A stretch of DNA of 64,000 nucleotides from Limnephilus marmoratus (taxonomy: Eukaryota > Arthropoda > Insecta > Trichoptera > Limnephilidae): contig OU862930.1 of the NCBI GenBank assembly GCA_917880885.1, positions 32,928,040-32,992,039 on the forward strand, read 5' to 3'. The notes beneath the pieces were generated by a model. It made no database searches. It was not told where the DNA came from and was given only the letters and a program-made list of their open reading frames with translations. Shown here one piece after another: positions 5,319-60,998 of this stretch (position 1 is its first letter; every line of letters starts with the position of its first letter). The position numbers were made by a program, and so were the translations under genes.

Positions 5319-6500
5319 ATGGAACTCGACAGGTTGATTAAACGGCGCGGGGTTTTGAAAGGTTCATTAACGAGATTCGAAACCTATTTAAGCAACGAAA
5401 ATGATATTACACCTGGCGTATTGTCATCGAGGTTAGACGCCATCAAACCTTCTCTGATAGAATTCTCCAAAATTCAGCTGGAGATTGATTTATTGAACAA
5501 ATCAGAAGATAATGACGCAAGGGATAATTTTGAAGGTACATATTTTAATATAATTGCATTAGGACAGGAAATGTTATCAAAATTTAAGAAGATTGAAAAT
5601 GTCCCAAATATCTCAGTAAATTTACCACCAATCTCTATACCAGTGTTTTCAGGTGACAACCATAAATGGTTGACTTTTAAAAATTCGTTCATTGCCTTAA
5701 TTCATGATAACAGTAAATTAAATAATGTTCAGAAATTTCATTACCTTATTAGTTATGTGTCCGGAGAGGCACTTGATTTGATTAGTTCTCTAGAAATAAC
5801 CGGGGATAATTATAGTGCAGCTTGAACAATGCTTATTTCGAGATACGAAAATGTCCGACTTATAGCAAATAGACATTTGAATTTCTTATTTAATTTTACA
5901 CCGTTAAAACGACAGAATCATCATGAATTACAGAACTTAATTGATCATGCAAACATTCATTTGAGAGCTTTACACAACTTAAAGCTACCAACAGAACATT
6001 GGGACACATTAATTATTCATATTCTAACCTCAAAGTTAGATAATCACACACGTAGCCTTTGGGAATCAATAGAATGCGACGAAGTTTATCCTACGTTCGT
6101 GCAGTTTAGCAATTTTATTTCACAAAGGTCTCAGATCCTGGAAACTATCCAAGGTGACATTGGTGGAATGCAACAGAAATCGGAACCAGTTGCAACAAAA
6201 CCAAAGTTTTTTTAATTTTAAGGTAAGGAATCCTACAAACAAGGTTACGTTAGCGTCAAGCAACGTTAATTGTATGCTGTGTAATGACAGTCATTTAATT
6301 TATTCTTGCAAAATATTTGTTAACAAAGAACCAGCGGCACGAAGAAAGCTCGTTTCAGAGAACAATTTATGATATAACTGCCTAAAACCGGGGCACCCTT
6401 CAAAGTTGTGCAGGTGGAAGGAAAAATGCAGTGTTTGTGATCGAAAACACCACACTCTGTTACATATCAATACTGATAATATACAAGCGGGTACTTCAAC
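5319..6500 (+). pseudogene. BEL element A gag (broken)
   Basis: Starts at ATG 5319 (MELDRLIKRRG...). The N-terminal part and the mid-region (SIPVFSGDNHKW, then NKFHYLISYVSGEAL-like) match the gag of BEL/Pao elements. A TGA at 5823 replaces an expected tryptophan codon. The same frame then continues to 6215, where a T-run near 6208 shifts the frame. The zinc-knuckle part (CMLCNDSH, NCLKPGH, CSVCDRKHHTLLH) follows in another frame with a further TGA at 6370-6372. Role in an active element: capsid protein binding the RNA genome. Confidence 0.85.
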
Positions 6501-18007: not shown

Positions 18008-18551
18008 GCTTGGCGGAGCTGCCTGGCTTCCTGCCGGGCCATAACCGCAGAACGGCAAGGGAGGGCAGGTAGTCCGCTTGGCGGAGCTGCCTGGCTTCTT
18101 GCCGTGCCATAACCGCAGAACGGCAAGGGAGGGCAGGTAGTCCGCTTGGCGGAGCTGCCTGGCTTCCTGCCGGGCCATAACCGCAGAACGGCAAGGGAGG
18201 GCAGGTAGTCCGCTTGGCGGAGCTGCCTGGCTTCCTGCCGGGCCATAACCGCAGAACGGCAAGGGAGGGCAGGTAGTCCGCTTGGCGGAGCTGCCTGGCT
18301 TCCTGCCGGGCCATAACCGCAGAACGGCAAGGGAGGGCAGGTAGTCCGCTTGGCGGAGCTGCCTGGCTTCCTGCCGTGCCATAACCGCAGAACGGCAAGG
18401 GAGGGCAGGTAGTCCGCTTGGCGGAGCTGCCTGGCTTCCTGCCGGGCCATAACCGCAGAACGGCAAGGGAGGGCAGGTAGTCCGCTTGGCGGAGCTGCCT
18501 GGCTTCCTGCCGTGCCATAACAGCAGAACGGCAAGGGAGGGAAGGCAAATG
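18008..18551. repeat. Minisatellite, 8 x 68 bp, GC-rich
   Basis: Eight head-to-tail 68-bp units start GCTTGGCGGAGCTGCCTGG at 18008, 18076, 18144, 18212, 18280, 18348, 18416 and 18484. They differ by only a few bases (CTTGCCG, CCGGGCC or CCGTGCC variants). Since 68 is not a multiple of 3 and the minus strand has no stops in any phase, all three minus frames are open across the array. This is a property of the repeat and not evidence of a protein. Much more GC-rich than its flanks. Confidence 0.92.
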
Positions 18552-28282: not shown

Positions 28283-29600
28283 CAAGCTGACTCATAGTGG
28301 AGTTAAACCTTTTCCACGTCCCGAATGCAGTTACACAAGTTCTCAAAGGGAAGATTTAAAAATTAACAGTATGATTCACAGAAGATAAAAACCATTTTCA
28401 TGTCCTGACTGCAACTATTCGTGTCCTCTAAAGAGATATCTAAGAAGTCACTTGCTGACTCACGGTGTAGAAAAACCGTTTTCATGTTCCGACTGCAACT
28501 ATTCATGAACTACGAAGAGAAATCTAAAAATGATCCATGTTTACCCACAGTGGAGAAAAATCCATTTCATGTCCTAACTGCAACTATTCTACTTCTCGAA
28601 AAAAAAATAAAGAAAACGGCACTTGCTAACTCACAGTGACGAAAAACCTTTTTCTTGTCCCGATTGCGAATATTCATGAGCTACGCAACGGTATCCAAAA
28701 GTTCTCGTGTTGAACCACACTGGACAAAAACCTTTTTCATGTCCCGACTGCAATTATTCATGTAGTGCAAAGGAACTTCTTAGAAATCATTTGCTTACTC
28801 AAAGTGATACAAAACCTTTCACATGTTTCTACTGCACTATTCATGTTCTACAAAGAGTCACCAAAAAATCACATGTTAACGCACAGTGGACAAAAACCAT
28901 TTTCCTGTCCAGAATGCAGTTATACAAGTTCTCAAAAGGACAATTTATAAATCCACCGTGCGATTTACAGAAGAGAAAACCTTTTACATGTCCTGACTGC
29001 AACTATTTGTGTTCTTAAAAGGGATATCCAAAAATTCTTTTGCCGACTCTACTCATTGTGGAGAAAAGCAAGTTTCATGTTCCGACTGTAACTATTCAGA
29101 GAAATAAAAAAATCACATGTTTACTCACAGTGGTCAAAAACCCATTTCATGTCCTGACTGCAACTATTCTACTTCTCGAAAAAAAAAACTAAAACGGCAC
29201 TTGCTAATTCACAGTGATGAAAAACCTTTTACTTGTCCCGAGTGCGACTATTCAGGCGCTACAAAACGGTATCTAAAAATTCACACGTTTACCCACACTG
29301 GACCAAAACCTTTTTCGTGTCCCGACTGCAATTATTCATGTTGTACAAAGGAACTTCTTAGAAATCATTTGCTGACTCACACGGCTTCAAAACCACTTAC
29401 ATGTTTCTACTGCAACTATTCGTGTTCTACAAAGAGGCATGAAAAATCACATGTTTACCTTCAGCAGACAAAACAATTTTTTTGTCCCAGCGTGATTTTT
29501 CAAGTTCTCGAAAGGGATTAAAAAATCCACCGAACGATTCAAAGTGAAGAAAACCTTTTTCATGTTCTGAGTGTAACTATGCATTTACTACGAAACCTAT
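28283..29600 (+). pseudogene. C2H2 zinc-finger array, about 15 fingers, heavily frameshifted
   Basis: Successive 84-bp units encode KPFSCPDCNYS...L..HLLTHSG-type fingers (for example FTCPECDYSGATKRYLKIHT, then FSCPDCNYSCCTKELLRNHL). The frame breaks repeatedly: open blocks at 28421-28639, 28707-29018 and 29117-29521 lie in different phases with TGA/TAA between. No leader exon is visible. The sequence is close to the two intact zinc-finger genes in this window, so it derives from the same expanding family. It lies inside the 27790-30167 element. Confidence 0.85.
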
Positions 29601-30167: not shown

Positions 30168-31377
30168 TAGGCTGCAACTAGAATTTTATGACTGCACTTC
30201 AAATAAACTAAACTACCATCTCATTTTTGTATTGTCCTTCACCCCATCAAGGGGGTGGACTGGATCTATGTCCGTGCAACAACCGAGAAGATGACTCCCA
30301 AGGTAGCCGCTGCAAAACTCGCCCGCGCCTCCCCCGTCGCCATGAGCGGGCCAGAAGACCAACTGTAGCGGACCGGTGCCCTTCCGCCCTGCCTCCGGTG
30401 ACCCGATGCTCTCTTTTATCCCTAGTTTCTTCAGGTCTTTCCGCCCTTAATCCCAACACTTTCTTCGAGGGCCTATCGGGAAGCCGGCTTAGGGACGCGG
30501 ACACCGAGTCTCGCTTGCGACTGGACTGATGGCTCCGCTTATCCTCGGTGGGACTGCCGGATGACCGTAGCTCAGCTGATTTGGTTAAGTCAAACAATCT
30601 CATCATAATATGTATTTTTTTTATTCAATTAACTTTTCTTCCTTAATTCCTTATTCTTAACTTTTATTTCAGCTTCATCAGGTGGCGGAGATGAGACGTG
30701 ATACTGTGAAATAAATAACAAACAACATGTACGCACTCGCATACTGCCTGCTTACAATGTATGCCCGGACATTGGGGGTCTAGAGTAATTTTAAATAAAA
30801 AAATTAGAGACCTGACGAGTACGGTGAAGGAAGAAACCATCTGTTTCCTTAGAACGCCGTGGGAAAGTGGTGGGCCATAATAAGACCGTCAGAAAATAAC
30901 GCCGTATTCAATATTTTTGTGACAATATCCTTCGTAATTTTTTAAACCCCCCCCCCCCCCCCGCCCCCTTATACCTGCACTTTGAATAAGAGAATGTTTT
31001 CTTTCGGAATATGTCATCAGATCATGAATCCACTTAAAATTTTACATTGTGAACACAAAACTGGTTTAAATTAAATCTGTGAACATGAAAATGCTTTAGT
31101 ATATTTGCGGCATGTTCCAAAGTGGAAGATACTATCAGTATCGCCCTGGTGTAAGACCACCATTCAGAATTGAAACGTTGCTTGAAAATGGCTTTAGCCG
31201 TGTTTAGTGACTAGATCTGAATAGCCAGGTACTTCCCAACCTTCCTCTTCCCCACCTCCTTCCCCTCCCCGCTACCATCAGCCTCACAACATACCACAAT
31301 TGGGGATGCCATAGTCTCACTGGCTCCAGACGGGAGCAGTTGAGATTCTTGTGTGGTATTCACTGTAAAAAAAAAAA
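30168..31377. other. Zinc-finger repeat debris, GC-rich block and a shared repeat
   Basis: 30225-30610 is a GC-rich block (CGCCCGCGCCTCCCC, GGGACGCGGACACC) of unknown origin with no credible gene. 30950-30966 is a C-run. 30967-31110 repeats the degenerate finger unit of 26860-26990. 31245-31345 (CTCCTTCCCCTCCCCGCTAC, then AATTGGGGATGCCATAGTCT) recurs at 59336-59415. Confidence 0.5.
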
Positions 31378-40767: not shown

Positions 40768-42650
40768 TTACTTCGTCGGATCATAAAACGGTTTTTCTCC
40801 ACTGTGAGTCAGCAGGTGCCTCGATAGATGATGCTTTTGAAAACTTGAATAGTTACACTTCGAACACGAAAAAGGTTTTTCTCCACTGTGAGTCAGCAGG
40901 TGCCTCGATAGATGATGCTTTTGAAAACTTGAATAGTTGCACTTCGAACACGAAAAATGTTTTTCTCCACTATGTGTCAGTAGATGCCTCGATAGATGAT
41001 TCTTTCGAAAACATGAATAGTTGCACTTGGAACATGAAAAAGGTTTTTCTCCACTGTGAGTTAGCATATGTATCTTTATATCTCCCTTCCGAAAACATGA
41101 ATAGTTGCACTCGAAACATGAAAAAGGTTTTTCTCCACTGTGAGTTAGCATGTGCCTCGTTAGATGATGCTTTCGTGAACATGAAAAGTTGCAATCGGAA
41201 CATGAAAAAGGTTTTTCTCCACTGTGAGTTAGCATATGTATCTTTAAATCTCCCTTCCGAAAACATGAATAGTTGCACTCGAAACATGAAAAAGGTTTTT
41301 TTCCACTGTGAATCAGCATGTGGATGGTCAGACTGCCCTTTTGAATACATGAATAGTTGCACATGGAACATGAAAAGGGTTTTTCTCCACTGTGAGTCAG
41401 CATGTGGATGGTCAGCCTGCCCTTTTGAGAACACGAATAGGTACACTCGGAACATGAAAAAGGTTTTTCTCCACTGTGAGTCAGCATGTGGATGGTCAGA
41501 TTGCCCTTTTGAGAACATGAATAGTTGCACTTGGAACATGAAAAGGGTTTTTCTCCACTATGAGTCAGCATGTGGATGGTCAGCCTGCCCTTTTGAGAAC
41601 ACGAATAGGTACACTCGGAACATGAAAAAGGTTTTTCTCCACTGTGAGTCAGCATGTGGATGGTCAGATTGCCCTTTTGAGAACATGAATAGTTGCACTC
41701 GGAACATGAAAAAGGTTTAACTCCAGTATGAGTGCGAAGGTGCCTTACAAAATCATTATTTTGAGAGCAAGAGTAGTTGCAGTGGGCACATGAGAATTTT
41801 TTATCCACAGGATACGTCTTCAGATCTGTCGATAAATTTGAAAAAAATTATAAGATAAGTTGAAAAAATTGATACCGCTAAACGTTAAATCATACAATGA
41901 AAATCGGTTTTACATGCAGTTTGGTCCATTCTTTCAACGTGTTCAAAGCATTCCTTATTAATATCCGATGGTTCTATGTTAATATCCATATAAGGAAAAC
42001 TCCCTTCCTCTTCTTCTCCCAATCCAACATCCGCCTTGATGGCCACTGTCTCCACATTAGTGCTGCCTGCAAAAGCAAAACGACAATTCATACATTGATC
42101 TTTGATATACAACGCAACTATTTTTTTTATAAAAACCATAATTTGAAAACATGAAATATACCAATCATATACCATGTGCAGGCGGGGATTTGGAAAAGAT
42201 GCCATATAGTCAATGCATGATAAAATAATGACCTCAGAAGTCCGCTTCAGGCGCCGATGCTTCAAGAAGGACCCTGCTCTTGAAGAAATCAATGGAAGTG
42301 TTTTCTACTTCCTTCAATATTTACGCATTTTTAGTGTAATTATAAGTGTAACTTTATAATGCATGATGGATGTCCCGAATAAAAATAGGTAAAAACTTGA
42401 GGAATCAGGAACGTAATGCGAGGAATGCAATTAATTTAAAATTCCAAATTAAACACACTACATTTTTTAATATATTCAATGAAACTAACTGGCCGTGTGG
42501 GAGCTCTTTGCATATTGCAAACATTCCTTCTTGACATCTTGAAGATCGAAATCTATATCTGTATACAGCATTACACCTCCACCTTCTTCCTGGGAACCTG
42601 GTTCCGTCTTGATGGAAACAGTCTCAGGATTTAGTAGATCCATGGCCTTG
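40768..42650 (-). CDS. C2H2 zinc-finger protein, 12 fingers, three exons
   Basis: Probable nuclear DNA-binding protein. The last exon (41825-40768, acceptor TCGACAG|AT) holds 12 tandem C-x2-C-x12-H-x3-H fingers linked by HSGEKP and ends at TAA. Fingers 2-3 are repeated as 4-5 almost exactly and 11-12 are identical, pointing to recent internal duplication. Two upstream exons encode related acidic leaders: 42650-42490 with ATG at 42643 (MDLLNPETVSIKTEPG), donor GCCA|GTTAGT; and 42066-41914 (NVETVAIKADVG), acceptor TTTGCAG, donor TGCAT|GTAAAA. All junctions are phase 1, so the three exons join in frame, and exon 2 could also be skipped. The promoter is not identified. No disabling change seen. 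Confidence 0.85.
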
Positions 42651-43444: not shown

Positions 43445-46400
43445 CAATTACAATTTGGTAGGCGGGTATGGGTACCGCCGCCCTGGGAACCATTTATTGG
43501 ATGACCAACACCTCTGCCACAGGTCACCCCAAGTGGTTCGCTACGTTTGGTGACTTAGCAGTGGTGCCCGGGTTCTTGGGGTAATGTTTGTCTAGGCCTT
43601 GATGGCGGGTGCGTCGGCCCACCTTCTGCGTGGCAGGCCGGATCGGGAGATGCTGGTTGAGGGAGACCCTTTACAACCGGTTACCGCTGTCCGGGTCGCT
43701 CGGTAGTACAGGGGCCCGACCCTCAGGCTCACGACTGAGGGTGGGCTGCCCCATCAACGAGTGTAAAAACCCCGCCGCTGCTGTTGTGCCGGTTCGTGAC
43801 CGGAGGGGACCCAGCAGTAGCGTTTGGGGCGCATTGGGCGACCTCTCCAGCCGGACTCTCCCTGCCCATCGCCTTGCACCGCAGTGGGTGGGTTGGATAC
43901 ATACGTCCGTCACTCCTGGAAACTCTGAATCCCAGCATCCTACCCACCCCTTTACCTTTTCCCTCCCTGACCTTCCTTCCCCTCATATCACACTTAAATA
44001 ACCCTACAAATAAAATCATGAATATACAACCATCAACAAATAACGTCATTACAGCGGCGAGGAGTAGGCGTCCCCGGTGCGGGCCAAAACTGTTGGTGAA
44101 TTACACCAACATTCGCGGCCTGCACACCAATTTAAATTCTGTCCACCACCACCTTTTTTCCCAACGCCCAAACCTACTTTTCCTGTCTGAAACCCAGATA
44201 GCTGAGCCTGTAGACACCTCCTATCTGAACTGCCCGGGCTTCACCCTCGCAGGCAAGTTCAGACCTAAAGGAGGTGTCTGTCTCTATAGTCGAGCTGACG
44301 TCAACTGTGTGCGACTGTTGAATCTGGAAAACTCCAGATTCGACGTAATGTGGGTACGCGTCAATCTTGCCAGTACGGTAAGATTCTACGCGTGTTTATA
44401 CCGCTCACCGAACCTTAGCGAATCAGACACGTCCGAGCTCTTCAAACACTTAAGCGATACTATTGATGACCTCTTGCCCCGCTACCCTACGGCAGAGTTT
44501 GTGGTCCTGGGGGACTTCAATGTTCATAACGAACCTTGGTTGAAGTTCTCAGGATCAACAGACTCGGCTGGACGCCAAGCGGAATCCTTTGCCCTTTGCT
44601 ACGGATTGGAACAAATGGTTCAGGAGCCTACAAGGGTTCCTGATGTCCAGACTCACCGTTCCAATCTGTTAGATCTATTTTTAACTACTGTGCCACTCGG
44701 TTACAGGATTGAAGTCACAGCGCCTTTAGGATCGTCCGACCACTGCCTGGTGACGACATCAATCCCTGTAAACTTCAGACCACCAAACGAGAGGCTGAAG
44801 AGAAAAGTGTGGCACTATAGGTCAGCAGATTGGTTCGGTCTGCGGGCACATTTTAATGCTTTTCCGTGGTCAGCTGTCTGTTTTCGGACTTCGGATCCCT
44901 CAAGATGTGCCCAGGAAATTGGTGAAGTCATCACATCCGCGATGGATGGCTTCATCCATTCTACTGTTAAGGAAACTGGTGTGGGCTCAAAGCCGTGGTT
45001 CAGTCGACAATGCGCTGAAGCAGTGCGACGAAAAAACGCGGCTTACCGAGCCTACAACACATCTAGAACATCCGAAGACAGAACAGCTTACAACAAAATG
45101 GCAAAGGAAACCAAGAGAATCATAAATAGGTCGAAATTGGAGCACGACCTGCAGATCAGCAGAAAGCTGGCTGCATGCCCGCATGGCAGCAGGCAATTCT
45201 GGTCGCTTGCGAGCTCAATAGGTCGCAATTTCTGCAAATCCAGTTTGCCACCTCTCACCAGACCTGACGGCTCACTAGCAAACACCGCCACCGAAAAGGC
45301 AAACTTATTAGGTAAAATGTTTGCGGATAACTCAACCCTCGATGACCAAGGTGCTGTCCCGACGTCGGTTCCTCACTGCGGTTTTCGTATGAAAAAGCTG
45401 AGGATTCGGCATCGGGAAGTACTCCATGTTTTACGAGGGCTTGATGTTAATAAAGCTAGTGGGCCTGACGGAATACCTGCCCTGGTACTGCAGAGGTGCG
45501 CTGCAGAAATAGCTCCAATTTTGACGAAGCTTTTTAAATTGTCCCTGAAGACTGGCTCTGTGCCCTCTGGTTGGAAAAAAGCGGTTATCCATCCTATTCC
45601 AAAGAAGGGTGACCGCTCCAACCCGGCCAACTACCGCCCCATAGCGATCACATCAGTTCTGTCTAAGGTGATGGAACGTGTGATCAACGACAAACTGCTC
45701 ACATACCTCGAGAAGAACAAAATTATTAACGACCGTCAATACGGATTCCGGCGGAACCGCTCGTGCGGTGATCTTCTCGCGTATGTGACGCATGTTTGGG
45801 GGCGATGCCTGGAACGTTTCGGTGAGACCCAAACGGTTGCACTGGACATCTCCAAGGCCTTTGACCGGGTTTGGCACCGAGGACTTGTCAACAAACTGCA
45901 TTCTTACGGACTTCCCGCATCCTTGTGTATGTGGATTGCCGACTTCTTGAGGGAGAGGTCGATTCAGACGGTAGTCGATGGTTTCACTTCTTCCTCACAC
46001 TCGATAAATGCTGGCGTCCCGCAGGGATCGGTTCTGTCTCCGACTTTGTTTTTGTTGCACATCAACGACCTTTTGTCATGTGCACCAATTCACTGTTACG
46101 CGGATGACAGTACAGTTCATGATAGCTTTTTGTTTGACAAGCCCCCAAAGGGCTCACAAACTCCAACAGCTCGTAGGGCTTTGAAGCAAAGAATGGACGG
46201 TTACCTCGAGAGTGTTTTCTCTTGGGGTAAAAATAATCTCGTTGAATTTAATGTTTCAAAGACCCAATCTTGTCTGATTACGTCTAAAAGGGATCGAAAT
46301 GAAAATCTAGTCTCTTTCAACGGAAGCAATCTTCCGAACAGGCCCTCCATTGATATGCTTGGTGTAACCCTAAGTGACCAGCTCAGGTATGGGGGCTCCA

Positions 46401-47040
46401 TCGAAGCCAGAGTAAAGTTAGCCTCCCAAAAACTGGGCGTACTGTACAGGGCCCGCAGATACTTTAATAGTACACAACTGCTAACCTTGTACAAATCACA
46501 AGTACGCCCCACGGTTGAATTTGGCAGCCATCTCTGGTCTGGAGCTCCAAAATACCTGAAAAATACCCTCGACTCTGTGCAGAAACGGGCGGTCCGTTTG
46601 ATAGATTCTCCCATCTTAACAGACGGATTGCAATCTTTAGAGCACAGGCGTCGGGTGGGAATGCTATCCTTGTTCTACCGGTATTACAATGGAAGATGCT
46701 CTGAAGAACTAGCATCATTGATCCCTTCGGCACCGGTGCATAGTCGGGAAACACGCCAAACGCGTGCCCAACATTTGTACACGGTTGACATTTGTCACAT
46801 GAGAACGGGTCGTTTCTTCGACTCGTTCTTGTGTTCAACAGCTCGGCTGTGGAATGATTTGCCGGCCTCTGTGTTTCCTCCTTCCTACAACATGGGTCTC
46901 TTCAAGACCAATGTTCATTCCTTCCTCTCCTCAAAAAGACTCTCCACACAGCATCCCAGATGACATAGGCCCTGAGGGAAATTATTTTCCTCAGGGCCTC
47001 CTGTGTGGAGTTAATGTAAAAAAAAAAAAAAAAAAAAAAA
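43445..47040 (+). mobile_element. Near-complete APE-type LINE with poly(A) tail
   Basis: Contains a GC-rich leader (43455-44017), one long intact ORF (44018-46963), a short tail with a strong hairpin (GGCCCTGAGG ... CCTCAGGGCC, 46969-46999) and a poly(A) of about 23. A probable 8-bp target duplication AATGACTA flanks it (43437-43444; 47039-47046, sharing two A with the tail). No separate gag-like first ORF was recognised in the leader, although an open frame of 130 codons exists at 43609-44001. Pieces of the same family occur at 11625-11935 (leader) and 28197-28262 (tail). Confidence 0.85.
44018..46963 (+). CDS. LINE ORF: apurinic endonuclease + reverse transcriptase, 981 aa
   Basis: Nicks target DNA and copies the element RNA into it. 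ATG 44018 chosen as the first in-frame Met; the frame is open further 5' without ATG. Endonuclease: NYTNIRGLHTN (about residue 28), SETQ (57-60), LGDFNVH and SSDHCLV near residue 245. Reverse transcriptase: HPIPKKGDRSNPANYRPI, QYGFRRNRSC, ALDISKAFDRVWH, AGVPQGSVLSP (about 665) and HCYADDST with catalytic DD (about 694). The C-terminal part has LWSGAPKYLKNTL and ends LSSKRLSTQHPR. The motif set fits the Jockey/CR1/L2 branch; the precise clade is uncertain. No internal stop, so it could be active if transcribed. Confidence 0.9.
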   Translation: MNIQPSTNNVITAARSRRPRCGPKLLVNYTNIRGLHTNLNSVHHHLFSQRPNLLFLSETQIAEPVDTSYLNCPGFTLAGKFRPKGGVCLYSRADVNCVRLLNLENSRFDVMWVRVNLASTVRFYACLYRSPNLSESDTSELFKHLSDTIDDLLPRYPTAEFVVLGDFNVHNEPWLKFSGSTDSAGRQAESFALCYGLEQMVQEPTRVPDVQTHRSNLLDLFLTTVPLGYRIEVTAPLGSSDHCLVTTSIPVNFRPPNERLKRKVWHYRSADWFGLRAHFNAFPWSAVCFRTSDPSRCAQEIGEVITSAMDGFIHSTVKETGVGSKPWFSRQCAEAVRRKNAAYRAYNTSRTSEDRTAYNKMAKETKRIINRSKLEHDLQISRKLAACPHGSRQFWSLASSIGRNFCKSSLPPLTRPDGSLANTATEKANLLGKMFADNSTLDDQGAVPTSVPHCGFRMKKLRIRHREVLHVLRGLDVNKASGPDGIPALVLQRCAAEIAPILTKLFKLSLKTGSVPSGWKKAVIHPIPKKGDRSNPANYRPIAITSVLSKVMERVINDKLLTYLEKNKIINDRQYGFRRNRSCGDLLAYVTHVWGRCLERFGETQTVALDISKAFDRVWHRGLVNKLHSYGLPASLCMWIADFLRERSIQTVVDGFTSSSHSINAGVPQGSVLSPTLFLLHINDLLSCAPIHCYADDSTVHDSFLFDKPPKGSQTPTARRALKQRMDGYLESVFSWGKNNLVEFNVSKTQSCLITSKRDRNENLVSFNGSNLPNRPSIDMLGVTLSDQLRYGGSIEARVKLASQKLGVLYRARRYFNSTQLLTLYKSQVRPTVEFGSHLWSGAPKYLKNTLDSVQKRAVRLIDSPILTDGLQSLEHRRRVGMLSLFYRYYNGRCSEELASLIPSAPVHSRETRQTRAQHLYTVDICHMRTGRFFDSFLCSTARLWNDLPASVFPPSYNMGLFKTNVHSFLSSKRLSTQHPR

Positions 47041-50382: not shown

Positions 50383-50519
50383 TAGTAAAACTGTTCGGGC
50401 AAATCTATACCTACTCCCATGTATCCCTCCCGTCTTACCTACCTATCCTGATATATCCATCTTGCTATTGTCACCGGTTCAAGATTGATTCCTAACCGTG
50501 AAATTAGTGCAATTTCAAC

Positions 50520-50822
50520 CAGTGGCGGCTCGTGACTTTTTGGTGTGCTAGAGTGCTGATATTTTAAAAAATGGCATTATTGATGTTGTTGTAGCCGAAA
50601 AAAATTTTTTTTTTTTTTTTTTTGAAAATCAGTTTTTTGTATGAAAAATTTCAGGTTAGTTTCAGTTTGGTGGTGCGCCGCACCGTTTTCCTGAAAAATC
50701 TTCATACAAAACACCAATTTTTGAAAAAAAAATAAAAATATTTTTCGCATACGACAACATCCATGATGCCATTTTTTTAATATTAGCACCCTAGCACAAC
50801 CAAAAGTCACGAGCCGCCACTG
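50520..50822. mobile_element. hAT-type MITE, 303 bp
   Basis: Terminal inverted repeats CAGTGGCGGCTCGTGACTTT and its complement AAAGTCACGAGCCGCCACTG are flanked by a perfect 8-bp target duplication ATTTCAAC (50512-50519 and 50823-50830). The interior is non-coding, itself partly palindromic, with a run of T. CAGTGGC ends and an 8-bp duplication are typical of hAT elements. Confidence 0.92.
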
Positions 50823-51344
50823 ATTTCAACACTGCGCGGTACTGGCAGCCCAAATACTTTGGTCTCGTCGCTTTATAGTCAAAACCCGGATCCGCGCAAG
50901 ATACGTGCTTTCAACCGTGGAGTTATTTTGAGTGCATGAAGTGTGGGACCCCAGGACGTCATCAGCAAGGTAGGGTCATCTTGTTTTCTGTGGACATCCC
51001 ATTTTTTCCCCTTCATCCCTTTTTTCATTCCAACAGTGATAGATAGAGATTCCGAACTCCGCGGAAGAAAGTAACAGGCTTCCAATCAGCTATCAAAACA
51101 TTGGTCCTTCAGCGGATGTAGAATTTACCTTGATTCTTTACAGATTAGTTAATTTACATGATTAGAAATTGTACTCAAACTAGTTTCATTACAAGACGAT
51201 TATCAATAGTAGGTAGTTTCGGTAGGTACGGCTTATTAGTTCAGCTGGTAGGTAGATAATATTGAGTCAAATAGAATACTTTATTTGTTGCAAGTATATA
51301 CCTACTATTATAATTGTTAATTTACGTATTTAATACATTTCAAA

Positions 51345-51877
51345 ATGGATAAAGTTGCAACCAAAATTGGTTCGTTAAAATTAAAACGGCAAAGGCTGTT
51401 TGGGAGAGTGCAGGTCGCATATGATCTCATTAAAGATTTAGAACAAAAAACAAAACTTTGTCAATTTAAGGCTAGAATGGAAAAAATTGAATCCACGTAC
51501 GAAGAGTTCCAAAACATTCAATGCGAATTGTCAGATCTGGTTTCGCTTCCGGAATTCGAATCAAAAAACGATATTTTAGAGGTTTCACGTGTTTTTGAAG
51601 AATTATATTTCCAAGTTACATCTGCGCGTGACATTCAATCGGACAAAAGTCACACAAGCCATGACATTTCAAATGAGGAAATACAACCGCGTCCGATGCG
51701 AAGCTTACTAGCTCCGGAAATAAAAATTCCTATATTTAGTGGAAATATCGGAGATTGGCCCCAATATTTTAATTTATTCAGGAGCCTTGTTCATGACAGC
51801 ACTATTTTGAGTGACATTGAAAAATTTCATTATTTATTGACCTCTTTGAAGGGAACAGCTTTGTCATTGGTTAAGAC
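51345..51877 (+). pseudogene. BEL element C gag, N-terminal part
   Basis: ATG 51345 (MDKVATKIGSLKLKRQRL). A helical N-terminal region, then APEIKIPIFSGNIGDWPQYF and EKFHYLLTSLKGTALSLVKT, the conserved gag core of BEL elements. Open up to the P-element insertion. Removing the P element with one GTTAAGAC copy brings this frame directly into the segment at 60014, so gag was open when the P element inserted. Confidence 0.88.
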
Positions 51878-52403
51878 CTTCGACCAAGAATATCTAGACA
51901 AGCCCTAAAAAAATAATAATGGCCCCTCAAACTCCCGAAACCAGAATAAAATTAGCTTACGGCCCATTTATGAAAAAGTATATGCATCGTATTGCACCGT
52001 TTAGAAGGCACAGTTCTTAATTGTATCTTTTATTGGGCTGGAGGGCTACACTGAAACTAATTTGCATTGCCAGCCGTCCAGACGGGGGTAAATTTTTTCA
52101 AACACAAAAATATACTACTACCGAATATTTTACAAGGTACACGTCGCGGACTTTATTTTTGAAAACGTAGTCAGCTATCAGAAAACAGAAGAAAATATAT
52201 GTGTTACAGATCGCATTTACACAGCGCATTCATATACGTGAAAAACATTATAGTTTTTAAAATTTGTCAAGCAATATTCTGACGTCATTCGCGCTTCGGT
52301 TCGTTCACTAATACATTGACATACACGGACAAAACAAAACATAACGGATTCTCGTTTCCTGTGACAGCGCGCAGCTTGTGTGTTGGTCATTAGTCATTAT
52401 AAA

Positions 52404-55400
52404 ATGTCTAAATGTATAATTAATAATTGCCACAATTCGCAAAACAGCAAAAGGAAGAATGATGGGTTGTCATACCATAGGTAAGTTTATGCAAATATAC
52501 TTTATTTTAATAAAATTATCATGTTGACGCGACGTCACTTCTTGACCGCGTGATAAGTTATCGATGTATTCAGCTCAGTTCACAATATTGACACACGTGT
52601 TGGTATTAGCCATGGCCTGCCTTCGTGTTACTTCTGAGCAAGTGTGCGTGTTTTTCGGCGGCGGATTCGCTAAACAGGGTTGTATTATGTCGATATTGCC
52701 CAGTTTTAATCTTTTAGATCATTTTAGATCATTTTTGAAATCAATAATTATGAATGAAAATATTAAAATTACATATTAGTACGATAATCACAATCAGAAT
52801 AATAATCTTTAAATCTTCTAAACGTTTTTAACGGTATTCATAGTTTGCAAAACACCCCAATGTGATTAGGTACTATTGCTATAGCGGACATGCTGTATAT
52901 GAAAAGGCAAGTTCAAGTAGGTTTACAATATTTTTAATGCAATAAGTTAGGTATAGGGATAAATATTTTCTGTATACATCCTGATAATTGTTCATAAAAC
53001 GACTTATTTTTTCTTAGGTTTCCCAAAAAAACGGAAAAATTGGAGAAATGGATAAAAGCAATACGAATTCAACAGGGTGATAGCAAGTGGATACCGTCAG
53101 CAGGAAACCGTGTGTGTTCGAATCATTTCCATCCTAAACACATACACATAACTACAAGCGGCCTTCGACGATTAGATTGCAAAGCTTTGCCTGTTTATCC
53201 GGTAATTATTTTGTTTGTTTTTTATGTGAAAACTTAAGCAAGTTTATCGAGGGTTGGTCAAGTGTTGATTGATAATGTTGTTTTCAGGCTGATTTCGGGC
53301 GATCGTTATCCGCCACGGCCACAGAGAATGCGAAGAGAACTACTGTAATTGTTTCTCCTCCAACAATAGTGGTTCACGATCCTGCTGAAACTTCCACCGT
53401 AATCGACGACCCGGCTCCAATACCAGAATTGCAAGAACCGATGTGCGTAAGTGATTCTTTTTCTCATTTTTCTTGTGTACCTTTCATTCAAGCTCATAGA
53501 TCAGATTTGAAACAAGCAATAGGAGAATCCGATAATGTCAACGAATCAATTATTTCTATACCACCATTAATTGAAACACTAAGAGAAAAACAACTCGTAT
53601 ATAAGTTAAAAAGAAAGTGTGTTTTATTAAAAAAAGCCCAATGTAAAATAAAATTATTGCAGCGACAAAACGCAAGATTAAAAAAAAAAGTATCATCATT
53701 TAAAAAGATTGTCTTGGAAAAAAGGGTTAGACCTTCTAAAGAAATAATATCACAAATATCACCAAATACTGAAACTGCTGAAGTATTTCAGAGCTTATAC
53801 CTAAAAAACGTTAAAAATAAAATCAAACCATTTAAACAATACCCTCCTGCACTCCGTAAGCTGGCATTAACACTTAATTTTTATTCCCCTGCTGCGTACA
53901 AATACACGCGAAAAGTGTTTGATTCATGTCTTCCCCATCCTCAGACACTTACTAAATGGTAAAAAAACAGATAATACAGATTTAAAATTAATATGTAACT
54001 TAACTGTTGATGAAATGGCTATCAGGCACCAAAAAATATGGGACGGTAAAAAGTATCAAGGTTATGTAGACATGGGAATGGGAGTAAACGATAAAGAGAA
54101 AGTCTTGGCTAAGGAGGCATATGTCCTGCTGTTAGTGTGCATTAATCAAAATTGGAAACTTCCTCTAGGTTATTTTCTTATAAATGGATTAGTTGCAAAG
54201 CAAAGAGCACGCATAATTAGACTATGTTTGAAAAAATGTCACGAGGTAGGAATCGAAACCGTTTCCGTGACTTTTGATGGGTGTAGAGCCAATATTTTGA
54301 CAATGAAAGTGCTTGGTTGTAAAATTGATGATGCCAAAAATTTTAAAACTACCTTCCCCCACCCATCTACTGGAAAAGAGGTTGCTAAATTTTTAGATGC
54401 TTGCCATATGATAAAGTTAGTCAGAAATACATTTGAAAAAAAAAAAATAATTATCGACAAAGAGGGCAAGGAGGCGCGATGGGAATTTTTCGTAAAACTT
54501 AATAGGACCCAAGAGGAGCAAGGCCTTCATTTCGCCACTAAAATAACTTACCAACACATTTTTTTCAGAAGTCAAATAATGAAAGTCAAACTGGCAACTC
54601 AATTATTAAGCCGAAGTGTTGCCAAAGCAATAGAATTTTGTAGAGAAGATTTAAAAATGCCATCTTACAAAGATTCAGAAGCCACATGCAAATTTGTTAA
54701 AATCTTGAATGACCTCTTCGACGTTTTTAAACTCACGAAATCTTAAAAAAAATTGGATTCCAGCAACCCTTGTCTCCCTTAAATAAAGAAACTGTATTTA
54801 ATTTTTTAGATGAAGCCACTGATTATCTTAACACTTTAAAAATCATTGTAGTAACTAAAAGGATGAATAAACAAAGTAAAAAAATTGAAATAACAAAAAC
54901 CGAAAAACTCCTCGTAGACAGTTTAAACAAAACCGGCTTCTTGGGATTTGTGGTATGCATACAAAGTCTGAAACATTTATATAAAAATTTAATTGAGGAA
55001 CATTATTTAAAATTTTTACCTTCTTACAAATTAAGCCAAGATCATATAGAGTTATTATTCGGCAATATAAGATCACATGGAGGCCACAACAATAACCCGA
55101 ATGCTCGACAGTTTAAAAGCATTTATAAAAAACTCCTCGGCCATCTTGAGCTAACATCAGCATTTAGCGGTAATTGCATTCCCCTTGAAAATATAACCCT
55201 ATTAAACTGTTCAAGTAGTACACCCATTCAAAATATAAACGTAACAACAACCGGTATGTCTTCCGATGAAGAATTTGATGAAAACTTAGATGTGATAGAT
55301 TTTATTGATTTAGACGAAACCGTTTTGAGATTACCCGGCAATAGTCACCAAATAGTAGGTTATATTTCGGGATTTGTGGCGAGAGGATTAACAAAAAAAA

Positions 55401-55837
55401 TAAAATGTAAAGAATGCATCGATAGTCTCACTGCCCAAACCAAGATGTGGTTTCACAAATTTATAATAGTCCGAGACAAAGGAGGGTTATGCTATCCATC
55501 TTTTGATGTGTTTGAAACCTGCCTTAAATGTGAATCGGTAATTAGGAAACTACTAAATGAAAACGATGGAAAAACTATAATGCCTAAATATACAAGTTCT
55601 TATATAGCAACCAAAATTTCACAAAATTTCTTAGATTCAAACATTTTTGATTCCCTCAATATTCATTCAATGGACCAACCCGCTACACATAATCATAGAT
55701 TACATTTAATACGAGCAATAATTGAAAGATATGTCAATATTAGACTTCATTATATAGCCAAAATGAGCAACATTGCCAACAAGCTTGCTAGCAAAAGGCA
55801 AGTGTTCAATAAGACTATACTTTTTCAAGGCGGGTAA
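52404..55837 (+). CDS. THAP-domain P-element transposase, three exons, two frameshifts
   Basis: Cuts and joins P-element ends. Exon 1 52404-52480 (ATG; donor ATAG|GTAAGT), exon 2 53018-53201 (acceptor TTCTTAG, donor CCG|GTAATT), exon 3 from 53288 (acceptor TTTTCAG). Junctions are phase 2 and 0 and join in frame. Domains: N-terminal THAP zinc domain (CIINNCHN ... RVCSNHF, C2CH), a leucine/lysine coiled coil (LLKKAQCKIKLLQRQNARLK), then the RNase H-like catalytic core with DEMAIR, VTFDGCRANI and FLDACHMIKLVRN, and the C-terminal LSQDHIELLFGNIRSHGG. The frame shifts in A-runs near 53955 and 54748; the remainder is open to TAA 55837. About 935 residues in all, close to THAP9 in length. A second gene product is not indicated. 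Confidence 0.85.
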
Positions 55838-55844
55838 TTAAAAT

Positions 55845-57655
55845 TTACGTTAAAGGTGATATTCCAAAGAATTAGAAATCTACTCTTTCACAGTATAAAC
55901 AACACGGGACAACCAAAAAACAACACAAACACCATAAAAATACACGAATATTTAAAAAACAACATCTGCAATTGCCCTTCTCTAGAAAAAACAGAACAAA
56001 TAAAGTATCTAGGAATCGTAATTGACCATAACCTAAAATGGACGCATCATATCAAACAAATCACAAATAAACTCCCCAAAACAATACACATTTTCCTAAA
56101 TATTATAATGTTAGGTATTAACATTAAAAGATTTATTAGTTGAGATAACATTTATTTGGAATACTTTTTGACTATAATACTATACTTGAATACTTTTTTA
56201 TCTTATCTTATCTTGAACAGAGAGTACAAAGTGGGTGATCCCATTTCCGGATCTCCCATAGACAATATTGTATCATAGAGATCTTAACATAACACTAAAC
56301 ATAAGGAACATACATATATAAAATAAAACAAATGAAAACAATATATTTTGCACTTTGTCAATCAATAATAGAAGATGGAATAATTGTCTGGAGAGGAGCA
56401 ACAAAATCAGCTATCGTTCACTTATAAATCGCGCAGAAAACGATCTTAAAGGTAATTCTTAAAACACATAGACCTGATACAGACCAAATATTCAACAGTT
56501 GTGACGTACTAGATATACGCCAATTACACGTTAAAATTATTATTCAAACATAAAGTTAATGGATCCTTATAATAACCAATTCATTACCAAATACTCGTAG
56601 ATTAATTCACTTTAACAAAACTAAATAATTATTACCTTACTTTTTATGTTTTTAGTTTAAAATAATGTAATACGTATATGTGTATATACGTCCATGTGCG
56701 TATAAGATATTATTTTTCCACTTTAAGTCTGGTGTTTTTTTTTCAATTTTTTTTTTTTGTTTTATAAATATTTTTTTATTTAAATAGCCATAAAACTGGC
56801 ACACTATATTTTTTCTACTTTCATTGTTTTTTATCTTATCTTATCTTATCTGTATCTTTTATGTATCACACAGTATTAGACAGTATATATAGACTATGTT
56901 TAGATTGTTTATCTAGTTCCTATCTCTGTAATATTAGGCAAAAAAAGTTAATAATTATTGACTTTTTATTTATTAGGTATTTGGGCATGATGTGAACATT
57001 TGTTATTGGGTTGTAACCTAATTATTATAATTTATTGTTTTGTTTAATGCATGTGATGTTATTAACCTGTAAATGTTCCTAATAAAATAAAATAAAATAA
57101 AAATAAAACTCTACTTAACTACATTTTCGACCAAAAAAACAAATTTCAACAATCTCAAAATATCACTAACAGACCAGTAAGACAATCGTACGAAAATAAC
57201 ATAAAAACTCCGACAGTAAATACAAGCTTTGGAAAAAGGCATTATAAATATCATGCTATTAAAGCATTCAACAGTCTTACCCTTGAAAATAAAATAGAAG
57301 AAAACAAAAATAAATCCATACTCAAAACTAAAAATTGGATTAAAGAACAAAAAAGACAAAATTTACAAAATCTCATTACATAATAAGAATAAAACACCAA
57401 CACGTAACACACAAAAATAAATATAAAACACATTATCAAAAAAAAAAACATTTTACCTAAATTATAAATTTTTATTTTAAGTTTAATTTTAGCTTTTTTT
57501 ATGCAGCATTATTTTTATATTATTTTTAATGTAATATGTATAAATTTTTGTTTTATAAAATGGAGGCCTCAGCGCAGGTCAGCTACCCAGTGAGGTCGAC
57601 ATTGCTGAATTGTATTTAATAATGTTAGATATTATGTCAAATAAATAAATTATCG
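55845..57655 (+). pseudogene. LINE 3' half inserted in the P element, itself interrupted
   Basis: Thumb KTEQIKYLGIVIDHNLKWTH (near 56000), then YFALCQSIIEDGIIVWRGAT (56350) and KTHRPDTDQIFNSCDVLDIR, and finally SFGKRHYKYHAIKAFNSL (57215). A non-coding tail ends with AAATAAATAAATTA (57638-57655). The coding order is that of a CR1/Jockey-type RT C-terminus with stops. Two foreign blocks separate the parts: about 56110-56300, and 56580-57105, the latter ending in an (AATAA)n tail. Confidence 0.7.
56580..57105 (+). mobile_element. Nested LINE tail with (AATAA)n end
   Basis: Non-coding AT-rich block with TCTTA repeats (56826-56850) that ends CTAATAAAATAAAATAAAAT, a LINE-type terminal repeat, just before the older LINE's coding sequence resumes. 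Confidence 0.5.
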
Positions 57656-58655
57656 GAAAGTAGTGTTCAGAAAGGAATTTAGTCATTTGATGCTTGTGGT
57701 TCATTGATCACTGTTTATTTTTCCTTAGCCGACTTAACAGCATAATGAATCCCTTTTATTTGTACTTTTTTAAACTTGTATTATTTTGCTTTCATGTTGT
57801 CGCTTCCTCTCGAGTCGTTTGCCGGGGACCCCCAGTACCCACTACCCACTCCAAATGCACCGACCAACAAGGGTCATCTCTCCTCGTACTTGTTTACGAC
57901 ATAGAGAGCTGAGAAAACCAACATTCCGGGTGCCTTGGCGGTGTCTTGGCGTTGCTGCTGATGCAAATGTTAACATTATGTTTATGCACTGTATTTTTGT
58001 AAACTATAAACTGACTTCTATTATTTGTGTGAACTGCATAACTTTTTGCCTAGGTTTTTAATGTTGAATCTCTGTGCGGACGACGTTTTTTTTTGTAGAT
58101 TTAAAGAAGATGTGCTTTGAAGATTGTTGATCCTAAAAAACCAACATTGCCATTACTGTTTCAATTTATTTTAAAAAAGGATCAAAGTCAAATTTCGCCG
58201 TCCCTTGCCCAGGCTACGATGCAACAACGCGATGGGTAACGTAAATGTAATTCTTATTACAAGCTTTGGTTAGTTCAAAAATCTGCTTCCGATAAAATAA
58301 ATTTTAAAATCAGTAAATAAGCTTCCAAATCCGTCCATAAAGAGATTAAAACTTTTCCTAGAAGCGTCAGAAAATCATTTGCTGCAATATCTCTAAAGGG
58401 GCATTTGTATAACAAAAGACATGGTTTTATTAATAAACATTTCTTTATTTTATGTACCAATCTTTTCATTTTCCAACCTTGTTTGGTAGTTTCCCAAATC
58501 GATCATCAACAAACTGAAAACACCGCAAATAACTCTCCGATTGAGCTAGTGGGAGAAGACTAAGTATCAACTATTTTTAGCTGAAAACTTACTTTGAAAA
58601 AAAAAAACGTTTCTGGTAGATTTCTGCCTTGAAGTTTCGAAGGAATATCCCACAA
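57656..58655. other. P-element interior without recognised gene
   Basis: 57780-57960 is GC-richer with CGGGGACCCCC and a short open frame, possibly another insertion. Nothing was assigned. Confidence 0.3.
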
Positions 58656-59309
58656 TTAGTCCAGTCAATGAAAGGTCAAAAAGGTGTTGTAGAGTGCGTG
58701 AGCAGGAACAGAAACTTCACGCTCCACAAATGTAGATATTTTCGAAAAAAATAATTTTACCTCACATTTTGAATCAAACATTCCTTCATATCGTCTAAAA
58801 TATTCATCAATGAAAGAAATTTATTTGTAAGAAGTTGTAAAGAATTTAATTCCCTTTTAGAATAAACATATGCAAATTAATCTCTAACCAGTAAATATTT
58901 ACAGCAATTTTAAGTTTTTTAGTAAAATGTCGTCATTTTCAGAAAAAGCTGATTTTATCTTATTACTGACACATCACTTTTGTTTGTAACAGATTGTGGG
59001 ACTTAGACTTGGATTTAATTTATTTTCAGCTTGGATTTAGAAAATTACGTATAGAATAAAAGTTGTACATAATTTTATGAGCTTTTACTTATTATAAGAA
59101 AATTGTCCTCTGCGACGCACCGTTTTCGAGATATAAGCGCACATCCGAAAATTGGGACGTTCTCTCCCCCCCCTCTTCCACCCCTAGCTCACCACCTAGA
59201 CGTCAGGACTATTAGTATGTTCACACCCTAAACACCCTGAACAAGTTTCTGAAGGAATCGCTTAGGTTCCTGCTCACGCACTCTACACCTCCTTCCTTGA
59301 CTGGACTAA
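58656..59309. mobile_element. Inverted-repeat DNA element, ~654 bp
   Basis: TTAGTCCAGTCAATGAAAGG ... GTAGAGTGCGTGAGCAGGAA at the left (58656-58721); the reverse complement (TTCCTGCTCACGCACTCTAC ... CCTTGACTGGACTAA) at the right (59251-59309). Arms of about 55-65 bp with one small gap. The interior is non-coding. The target duplication is not clear. Confidence 0.65.
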
Positions 59310-59324
59310 ATAGAAATACGGCTG

Positions 59325-59470
59325 CTCTAACCCATCTCCTTCCCCTCCCCACTACAATCAGCCTCACATCCCCAATTGGGGATGCCATAGTCTAACTGGT
59401 TCCAGGCGGTTGGGAGAAACCCATAACCACCATTTATTGGGTAACTAACACCCCTACAATGGGTCTTTCC
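59325..59470 (+). repeat. Dispersed repeat, copy of 31245-31345 with LINE-leader similarity
   Basis: ATCTCCTTCCCCTCCCCACT and AATTGGGGATGCCATAGTCT recur at 31245-31345. The following CCACCATTTATTGGGTAACT resembles the LINE leader words CCATTTATTGGATGACCAAC at 43490. Confidence 0.55.
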
Positions 59471-60013
59471 AAGTGGTTATTTAATATTTATTTACCAAAT
59501 ATTTTTAACTAAGATAAAACCTTTGCCCAATAATAAAAAATGTAGGTTTACCTACCGTTTTTGGTTCTAGAGGACCTGTTCAGAATGTAAAAACTAAAAA
59601 TGAAAACTAAAATGTTTCATGTTATTTATTAATCCTCTCCCAATTCAGCCCTTCTTTTGTTTCGTGACGTATTTTCTCGACGTTTGTTTAAAATTAAAAG
59701 AACACCTCTTGTCACACAATGAACGCTCTCGGGTTATTTTCTTTACGAGCGTGTACGGCTAGTTTATACCAAGTAGGATTGATAAATTCATCTCCATAAT
59801 ACGTCACGCGCGATATGTGATTGGTTGAAAAATGATAAAACTAAAAAATGGGATTTGAGAATGAACTTTGTGATCGGATTTACAAACTTCGAGGCGAGGC
59901 GATGGAATACGTACAATAGTTGTATTGTTAACATTTACTTACACGGGGTCAATTTTACTGGCTTGCTTACTAGGTTAGGCCGTATCTAGATATACTTGAT
60001 CGAAGGTTAAGAC

Positions 60014-60998
60014 TATTCCATTGATTCAAGAAAATTATGAATTAGCATGGGAAACACTGTGGAGTCATTATTCCGAGTCCAGGGCATTATTTATATATTA
60101 TGCCAACTCGATTTTAAATTGTAATTTTGCTAATAATGAAGAGATTTTGAATGTCTTGCGTGAAAATCTCTCGGGGCTTCGCGAATTAAACCGGGGAAAA
60201 TTATTTGAAGAATTCGTTTGTCATATTATGGTTCTGCAAAAAATAGATTTAAAAACGCGTCGGTCTTTTGAATCTCTTGTTAAAAAAGATGAAATACCGG
60301 ATACTGGAAAATTAATAGAATTTTTAGCAACCCAAAATCGAATAAATATGCTTTCAGATATTAAAGAAAAAAAGATTCCTAAGAGGGCATTATTTTCAAA
60401 CGCGAGCTCAAACGAGCATAATGTCAATAAAATTACTTGTATGATGTGTAATCACACACATCACTTGACAAAGTGTCAAGACTTTCTATCACTAAATGTA
60501 GACAGTAGGAGGGACTTCGTAAAAAAGGAGAAGTTGTGTTTCAATTGTTTGAATCCACATTTCATTAAAAAATGCCGTTCAAAGTTTCGATGCAAAAAGT
60601 GCAACCGAACGCACAATACTCTGCTACATACTGATGAAAGATCTCCTTCGCCAAACAACCGCAGTACTGCAACGGACGCGGACGATTCTGTACAGTGTAA
60701 TATTGCTTACGGGCGATCAAAACGTTCGATATTACCTACAGCGCTAGCAGAATTCCTGGACTGTTCGGGACGTAAACACCGAGCGCGGATTTTAATTGAT
60801 ACGGGTAGTGAAGTATCATTTATGTCCGAAAACCTATATAACATTTTAGGGCTACATTCACAAAAATGGTCCGGGAAAGTTCGGGGTGTAAACAATGCTA
60901 TTGTCAACAATGTACAGGGTTTAGTTACCTGTAAAATATTCTCTATTCAAAATCACTGCTTTGTGAAAGGGCAAGCTATCAAATATCAAATATTCTAA
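60014..60998 (+). pseudogene. BEL element C gag C-terminus and protease
   Basis: Resumes gag after the P element (IQENYELAWETLWSHY). Zinc knuckles CMMCNHTHHLTKC, CFNCLNPHFIKKC and CKKCNRTHNTLLH bind RNA. The protease region follows with ILIDTGSEVSFMS, an intact D-T-G active site. The frame is lost at about 60990, in a direct repeat TATCAAATATCAAATAT. Confidence 0.85.

Follow-up and report, generated by a model that had tools for sequence, protein, structure and literature searches.

A broken P-superfamily transposon inserted in the gag of a BEL/Pao retrotransposon of Limnephilus marmoratus

The gag region of a BEL/Pao retrotransposon (BEL C) of Limnephilus marmoratus is interrupted by an insert of 8128 bp, which occupies positions 51878-60005 of the 64,000 nucleotides of contig OU862930.1 analysed here (the window) and is flanked on both sides by GTTAAGAC. 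The insertion and its duplication are directly visible, and we consider it very nearly certain that they record a P-superfamily transposon that entered the gag of a pre-existing retrotransposon by cut-and-paste, in a copy that was later broken and probably invaded in its turn. Staggered joining at the 8 bp target followed by gap repair would have produced the duplication, a deletion and a break of the frame would later have abolished transposase function, and the 3' part of the insert was probably entered by a fragment of a retrotransposon and by a small inverted-repeat element. The nest yields an order of age in which BEL is the oldest, P came next and the non-LTR fragment probably followed. 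Coordinates of the individual features are collected in Table 1.

Table 1. Features of the insert and of its gag host (positions within the window)
Feature	Position	Strand	Remarks
5' half of the BEL C gag with the left target-site copy (DUF1759 profile positions 1-49)	51321..51877	+	Pfam DUF1759 E=2.5e-12 for ORF 51321-51908
Target site duplication GTTAAGAC, left copy	51870..51877	+	
Left 31-bp terminal inverted repeat	51878..51908	+	26/31 against right repeat
Possible subterminal inverted repeat	52243..52257	+	14/15 with 59603-59617; 365 bp in from left end
Proposed transposase exon 1, first part of THAP domain	52404..52480	+	GT-AG boundary, from the sequence
Proposed transposase exon 2, remainder of THAP domain	53018..53201	+	
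Transposase exon 3, first part, P-element HTH domain, then frame lost	53288..53959	+	Tnp_P_element E=8.1e-16
Second transposase frame, with the N-terminal part of RNase H and the GTP-binding insertion domain	53961..54743	+	E=1.8e-39, 2.1e-39; 6p5a E=6.3e-12
Third transposase frame, with the C-terminal part of RNase H and the THAP9 C-terminal domain, to likely natural stop	54743..55837	+	E=1.6e-19, 2.8e-08
Probable nested decayed non-LTR retrotransposon remnant, seemingly itself interrupted	55838..57660	+	limits by eye; comparison supports part only
Inverted-repeat-bounded unit, possibly nested MITE	58656..59309	.	54-column arm alignment 76%, inner 29 bp 93%
Possible subterminal repeat partner	59603..59617	-	388 bp in from right end
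Right 31-bp terminal inverted repeat	59975..60005	-	26/31 against left repeat
Target site duplication GTTAAGAC, right copy	60006..60013	+	
3' half of the BEL C gag, followed by a part resembling a zinc knuckle (by eye) and an aspartic protease	60014..60998	+	DUF1759 E=5.3e-07

Insertion boundaries and the interrupted gag

The two ends of the insert pair as 31 bp terminal inverted repeats (TIRs), with 2 mismatches in the first 20 bases. Stretching the comparison to 33 bases leaves the match at 26, and shifting the right end by 1 or 2 bases lowers it to 7-10. Counting the base before GTTAAGAC, the direct repeat is really 9 bp long (GGTTAAGAC), so that more than one register is possible; symmetric insert ends are obtained only in the 8 bp register, which was the choice of the first-pass annotation. 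A 20-base pattern derived from both ends and allowed up to 3 mismatches occurs within the 64 kb only at the two insert ends, yielding no extra site that would mark a P-derived MITE in the window, and 100 shuffles returned no occurrence. The 8 bp target site duplication and the TIRs are both those of the P superfamily. The outermost bases of the insert are CT, which we count against the P-element reading: they are CA in zebrafish Pdre2 and also in Drosophila P.

DUF1759, the gag domain by which BEL/Pao elements are recognised, is found in both halves of the insertion host, profile positions 46-146 lying to the right of the insert, and each half scores above the Pfam cut-off. Excision of 8136 bp (the insert plus one copy of the duplication) preserves the gag frame: joining 51877 to 60014 gives a single open frame with a terminal stop only, compared with 26 stops in each of the two joins placed one base off. 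Between the joined gag peptide (122 residues) and a second BEL gag, at 5631-5996 in the window, the alignment shows 33% identity (E=4.6e-16) and is gap-free at the join; that second copy carries its own stop a few residues past the join position. Because the gag frame is restored and aligned through the join, the P element is younger than the BEL C copy. The first-pass annotation had placed the insert and an exact 8 bp duplication at these coordinates, counted two mismatches in the 20 terminal bases, proposed that removing the insert with one GTTAAGAC reopens the gag frame, and drawn from this a defined empty site and a P element younger than BEL C; each of these statements stands.

Downstream, BEL C continues in different frames, so it is decayed too; matches there to Asp_protease_2 (E=0.0021) and RVT_1 (E=2.1e-5) are both below the Pfam cut-off, and self-comparison within the 64 kb window found no LTRs of BEL C. 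A near-palindrome of about 309 bp (77%) lies at 50517-50825, some 500 bp upstream of the BEL C gag.

Transposase gene and its broken frames

Two proposed GT-AG introns link three exons in the left part of the insert, and the spliced product of exons 1 and 2 with the start of exon 3 matches the Pfam THAP domain (PF05485, E=9.3e-16), which spans exons 1 and 2. The order of domains is THAP, P-element helix-turn-helix (HTH; PF12017, E=8.1e-16), RNase H N-terminal part, GTP-binding insertion, RNase H C-terminal part and THAP9 C-terminal domain, with all matches above Pfam cut-offs. An N-terminal THAP with a P-type HTH, and an RNase H with a GTP-binding insertion (PF21787, PF21788, PF21789) and D, D and E in its catalytic columns, are the protein features of the P superfamily, and the element had been annotated at first pass, correctly, as a P element with a THAP transposase and introns. 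The Drosophila P transposase structure 6p5a aligns to the GTP-binding/catalytic part and to the C-terminal catalytic part. Catalytic residues of the Drosophila protein are D230, D303 and E531 (PMC7776569). In an alignment of 121 rows, comprising the insert copy and 120 listed relatives, the corresponding columns hold D in 116, D in 120 and E in 119, and the insert copy keeps all three, the second and third being reached by the 6p5a alignments and the first assigned by motif only. These domains and retained DDE positions point to a presumptive GTP-dependent DDE chemistry. The transposase frame ends at 55837, where the match to relative P0002 has reached residue 846 of 847.

P transposase genes have introns, two of which are well placed here, and with the three catalytic positions and the natural stop all kept, the copy might be taken for a functional autonomous transposon in which the remaining apparent breaks are introns as well. 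The breaks themselves make this very improbable. At the first, 34 bp separate the conserved Trp after the HTH from the Cys before the first Asp; the same anchors are 28-33 residues apart in relatives (81 of 120 have both anchors, and 30 residues separate them in 58 of these), and since 34 bp stand where 28-33 codons are expected, coding sequence is missing and not extra, with a net loss of about 56 bp after the HTH and a shift of frame. The second, a frame change near 54.73 kb located by tblastn with relatives, leaves no room for an intron, since the frames abut or overlap for four of the five relatives printed; for the fifth (P0011) there are about 62 bp for 20 residues. Neither break looks like an intron. 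The continuous transposase coding capacity of an autonomous P element is thereby absent, the frame being lost at a deletion and broken a second time further on, and the copy, whose termini and target site the first-pass annotation had called intact, is to judge by its reading frames inactivated and now a fossil. Its termini might still be a putative substrate for transposase made elsewhere.

Errors of assembly could account in part for the frame breaks. That the junction as a whole is such an artefact, a chimeric join in place of an insertion, is scarcely credible: the two junctions coincide exactly with the matching TIRs and a perfect 8 bp duplication, the host frame resumes beyond them, and by our own arithmetic a duplication at a given pair of places arises by chance with a probability of 4^-8.

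Nested pieces, native length and subterminal repeats

The insert had been singled out at first pass as a long element, and 8128 bp do lie between its termini, but part of this length is probably a later nested insertion, and the P element in its native state was probably less than 8.1 kb long. Within the piece that follows the transposase frame, 55967-56107 reads as non-LTR reverse transcriptase (RT), matching 3 of 7 RT frames that we chose from the window (E 1.9e-6 to 3.6e-4), whereas neither of two control sequences, 57661-60005 and the reversed piece, is matched by any window RT frame at E 0.05. Two of 120 fetched reverse transcriptases have weak matches, at 55979-56101 and 56317-56523 (E 0.005 and 0.004). 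GC content falls to 25.6% over 55838-57660, compared with 34.2% in 51878-55837 and 36.0% in 57661-60005. The inverted-repeat-bounded unit further to the right points in the same direction. For a native length of 8.1 kb free of nested insertions it can be said that a native P element of 7545 bp is reported from Anopheles (PMC1562414), that the other 4 of the 7 RT frames do not match the nested piece, and that 57096-57380, assigned to the retrotransposon remnant by eye only, has no significant match to one window reverse transcriptase with which it was compared (E 0.65); set against the RT-like peptide, the drop in GC and the inverted-repeat unit, this reading is decidedly unlikely. The matches behind the nested-piece readings are weak, and we keep to a shorter native element, later invaded, as the probable history. 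Separately, an 85 bp stretch in the right part of the insert (59325-59409) recurs at 31245-31333 with 84% identity and is perhaps a further small nested repeat.

A possible pair of subterminal inverted repeats lies inside the two ends (Table 1). A pair as good as this (14/15) turned up in 11 of 200 plain shuffles. With dinucleotide shuffles and offsets of no more than 25, a cut-off introduced once the pair had been noticed, the count was 3 of 200; the pair is thus suggestive only. The corresponding spacers are about 100 bp in Drosophila melanogaster P (PMC7776569) and about 400 bp in zebrafish Pdre2 (PMC7776569, PMC10983969), compared with 365 and 388 bp for the possible pair here. Set against the Drosophila P motif GTCCGGAC (PMC3276498), the target sequence GTTAAGAC agrees at 5 of 8 bases, this being one site only; we calculate that a match of at least 5/8 arises by chance with a probability of about 0.03 at equal base frequencies. 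One could go further and suppose a P family that can still be mobilised in a lepidopteran-like host, with this copy as a member. The family's 31 bp TIRs, subterminal repeats some 380 bp inside and GT....AC target preference would then form a bridge between the layouts of Drosophila and zebrafish, and its MITE derivatives would still move; we regard this as speculative and rather unlikely.

Known P elements, relatives and neighbouring sequences

TIR length, duplication length, domain order and the spliced gene agree with described P elements. Elements of this build were described in Anopheles gambiae in 2006, at 4178-7545 bp, and share with the insert TIRs of comparable form (27-31 bp, with up to 8 mismatches) and perfect 8 bp duplications; the Anopheles master copies have coding capability, unlike the insert copy (PMC1562414). 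Drosophila melanogaster P likewise has 31 bp TIRs, an 8 bp duplication, a GTP-binding insertion in RNase H and DDE residues (PMC7776569; PDB 6p5a), but is 2.9 kb long with perfect TIRs. Zebrafish Pdre2/THAP9 has the same 8 bp duplication, with TIRs of 13 bp in contrast to 31 bp here (PMC7776569, PMC10983969). A long insect copy with its ends and target site preserved, which the first-pass annotation considered worth documenting, therefore has precedents in the 2006 Anopheles description (PMC1562414), and the first-pass statement that P elements are known from flies and vertebrates was too narrow, the P superfamily being among those present in all arthropod species of one survey (PMC6327564). 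With this wide arthropod presence already reported, the insertion does not change views on P elements; its exact termini and defined empty site are useful for annotating the P family of the host and for finding its MITEs. Among the titles listed by a literature search we found no prior description of this insertion, and a search on P element, THAP9 and Lepidoptera found no paper, most subscription journals lying outside its coverage.

Of 7985 candidates scored in a homology search, 605 matched as homologues at E<=1e-3. The 120 of these that were listed are 40-54% identical to the insert copy, and the best-scoring row among the matches listed is an aphid protein at 41% identity. In a tree rerooted at its midpoint, where support values next to the root may be misplaced, the insert copy falls in a 57-tip clade with support 1.0. 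Most rows are nameless; an organism name is attached to 21, of which 18 were labelled and the remaining three are Chilo. All 11 labelled members of the clade are Lepidoptera, and labelled beetles and the aphid fall outside it. The innermost grouping of the insert copy is weak, with a support of 0.279, and the nearest tip is at a distance of 1.16. The P-like THAP9 proteins of Lepidoptera, such as those of Choristoneura (P0003), Colias (P0006), Mythimna (P0011) and Plutella (P0023), have the same domain set and are 49-52% identical over 97-100% of the 481 residues searched; compared with these, the insert copy is broken.

No other P copy was detected in the 64 kb window by tblastn with the 120 listed relatives, none of the 371 hits starting outside the insert. 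Virus-borne relatives were sought in viral_contigs, where a 23-base terminal pattern had 0 exact matches and a scan with an alignment of 9 relatives gave 137 pattern stretches, none encoding a relative; at the sensitivity used, viral_contigs thus shows no sign of a viral vector.

Elsewhere in the window, 43739-46963 holds an uninterrupted 1074-aa non-LTR retrotransposon frame with a GC content of 49.7%, compared with 35.9% for the window, and is perhaps a recent arrival. For residues 560-1000 of this frame the named relatives among 120 listed are mostly Lepidoptera, with the beetle Callosobruchus and the crab Petrolisthes in addition, a pattern that by itself would do no more than lean towards a lepidopteran host. 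A tandem array at 18008-18545 consists of 7.9 copies of a 68 bp unit with 98% matches and has three frames open on the minus strand. Three further arrays have units of 84 bp (794-1484, 28387-29436 and 40778-41733); the first and the last of these lie within open frames and read, by eye, as C2H2 zinc fingers.
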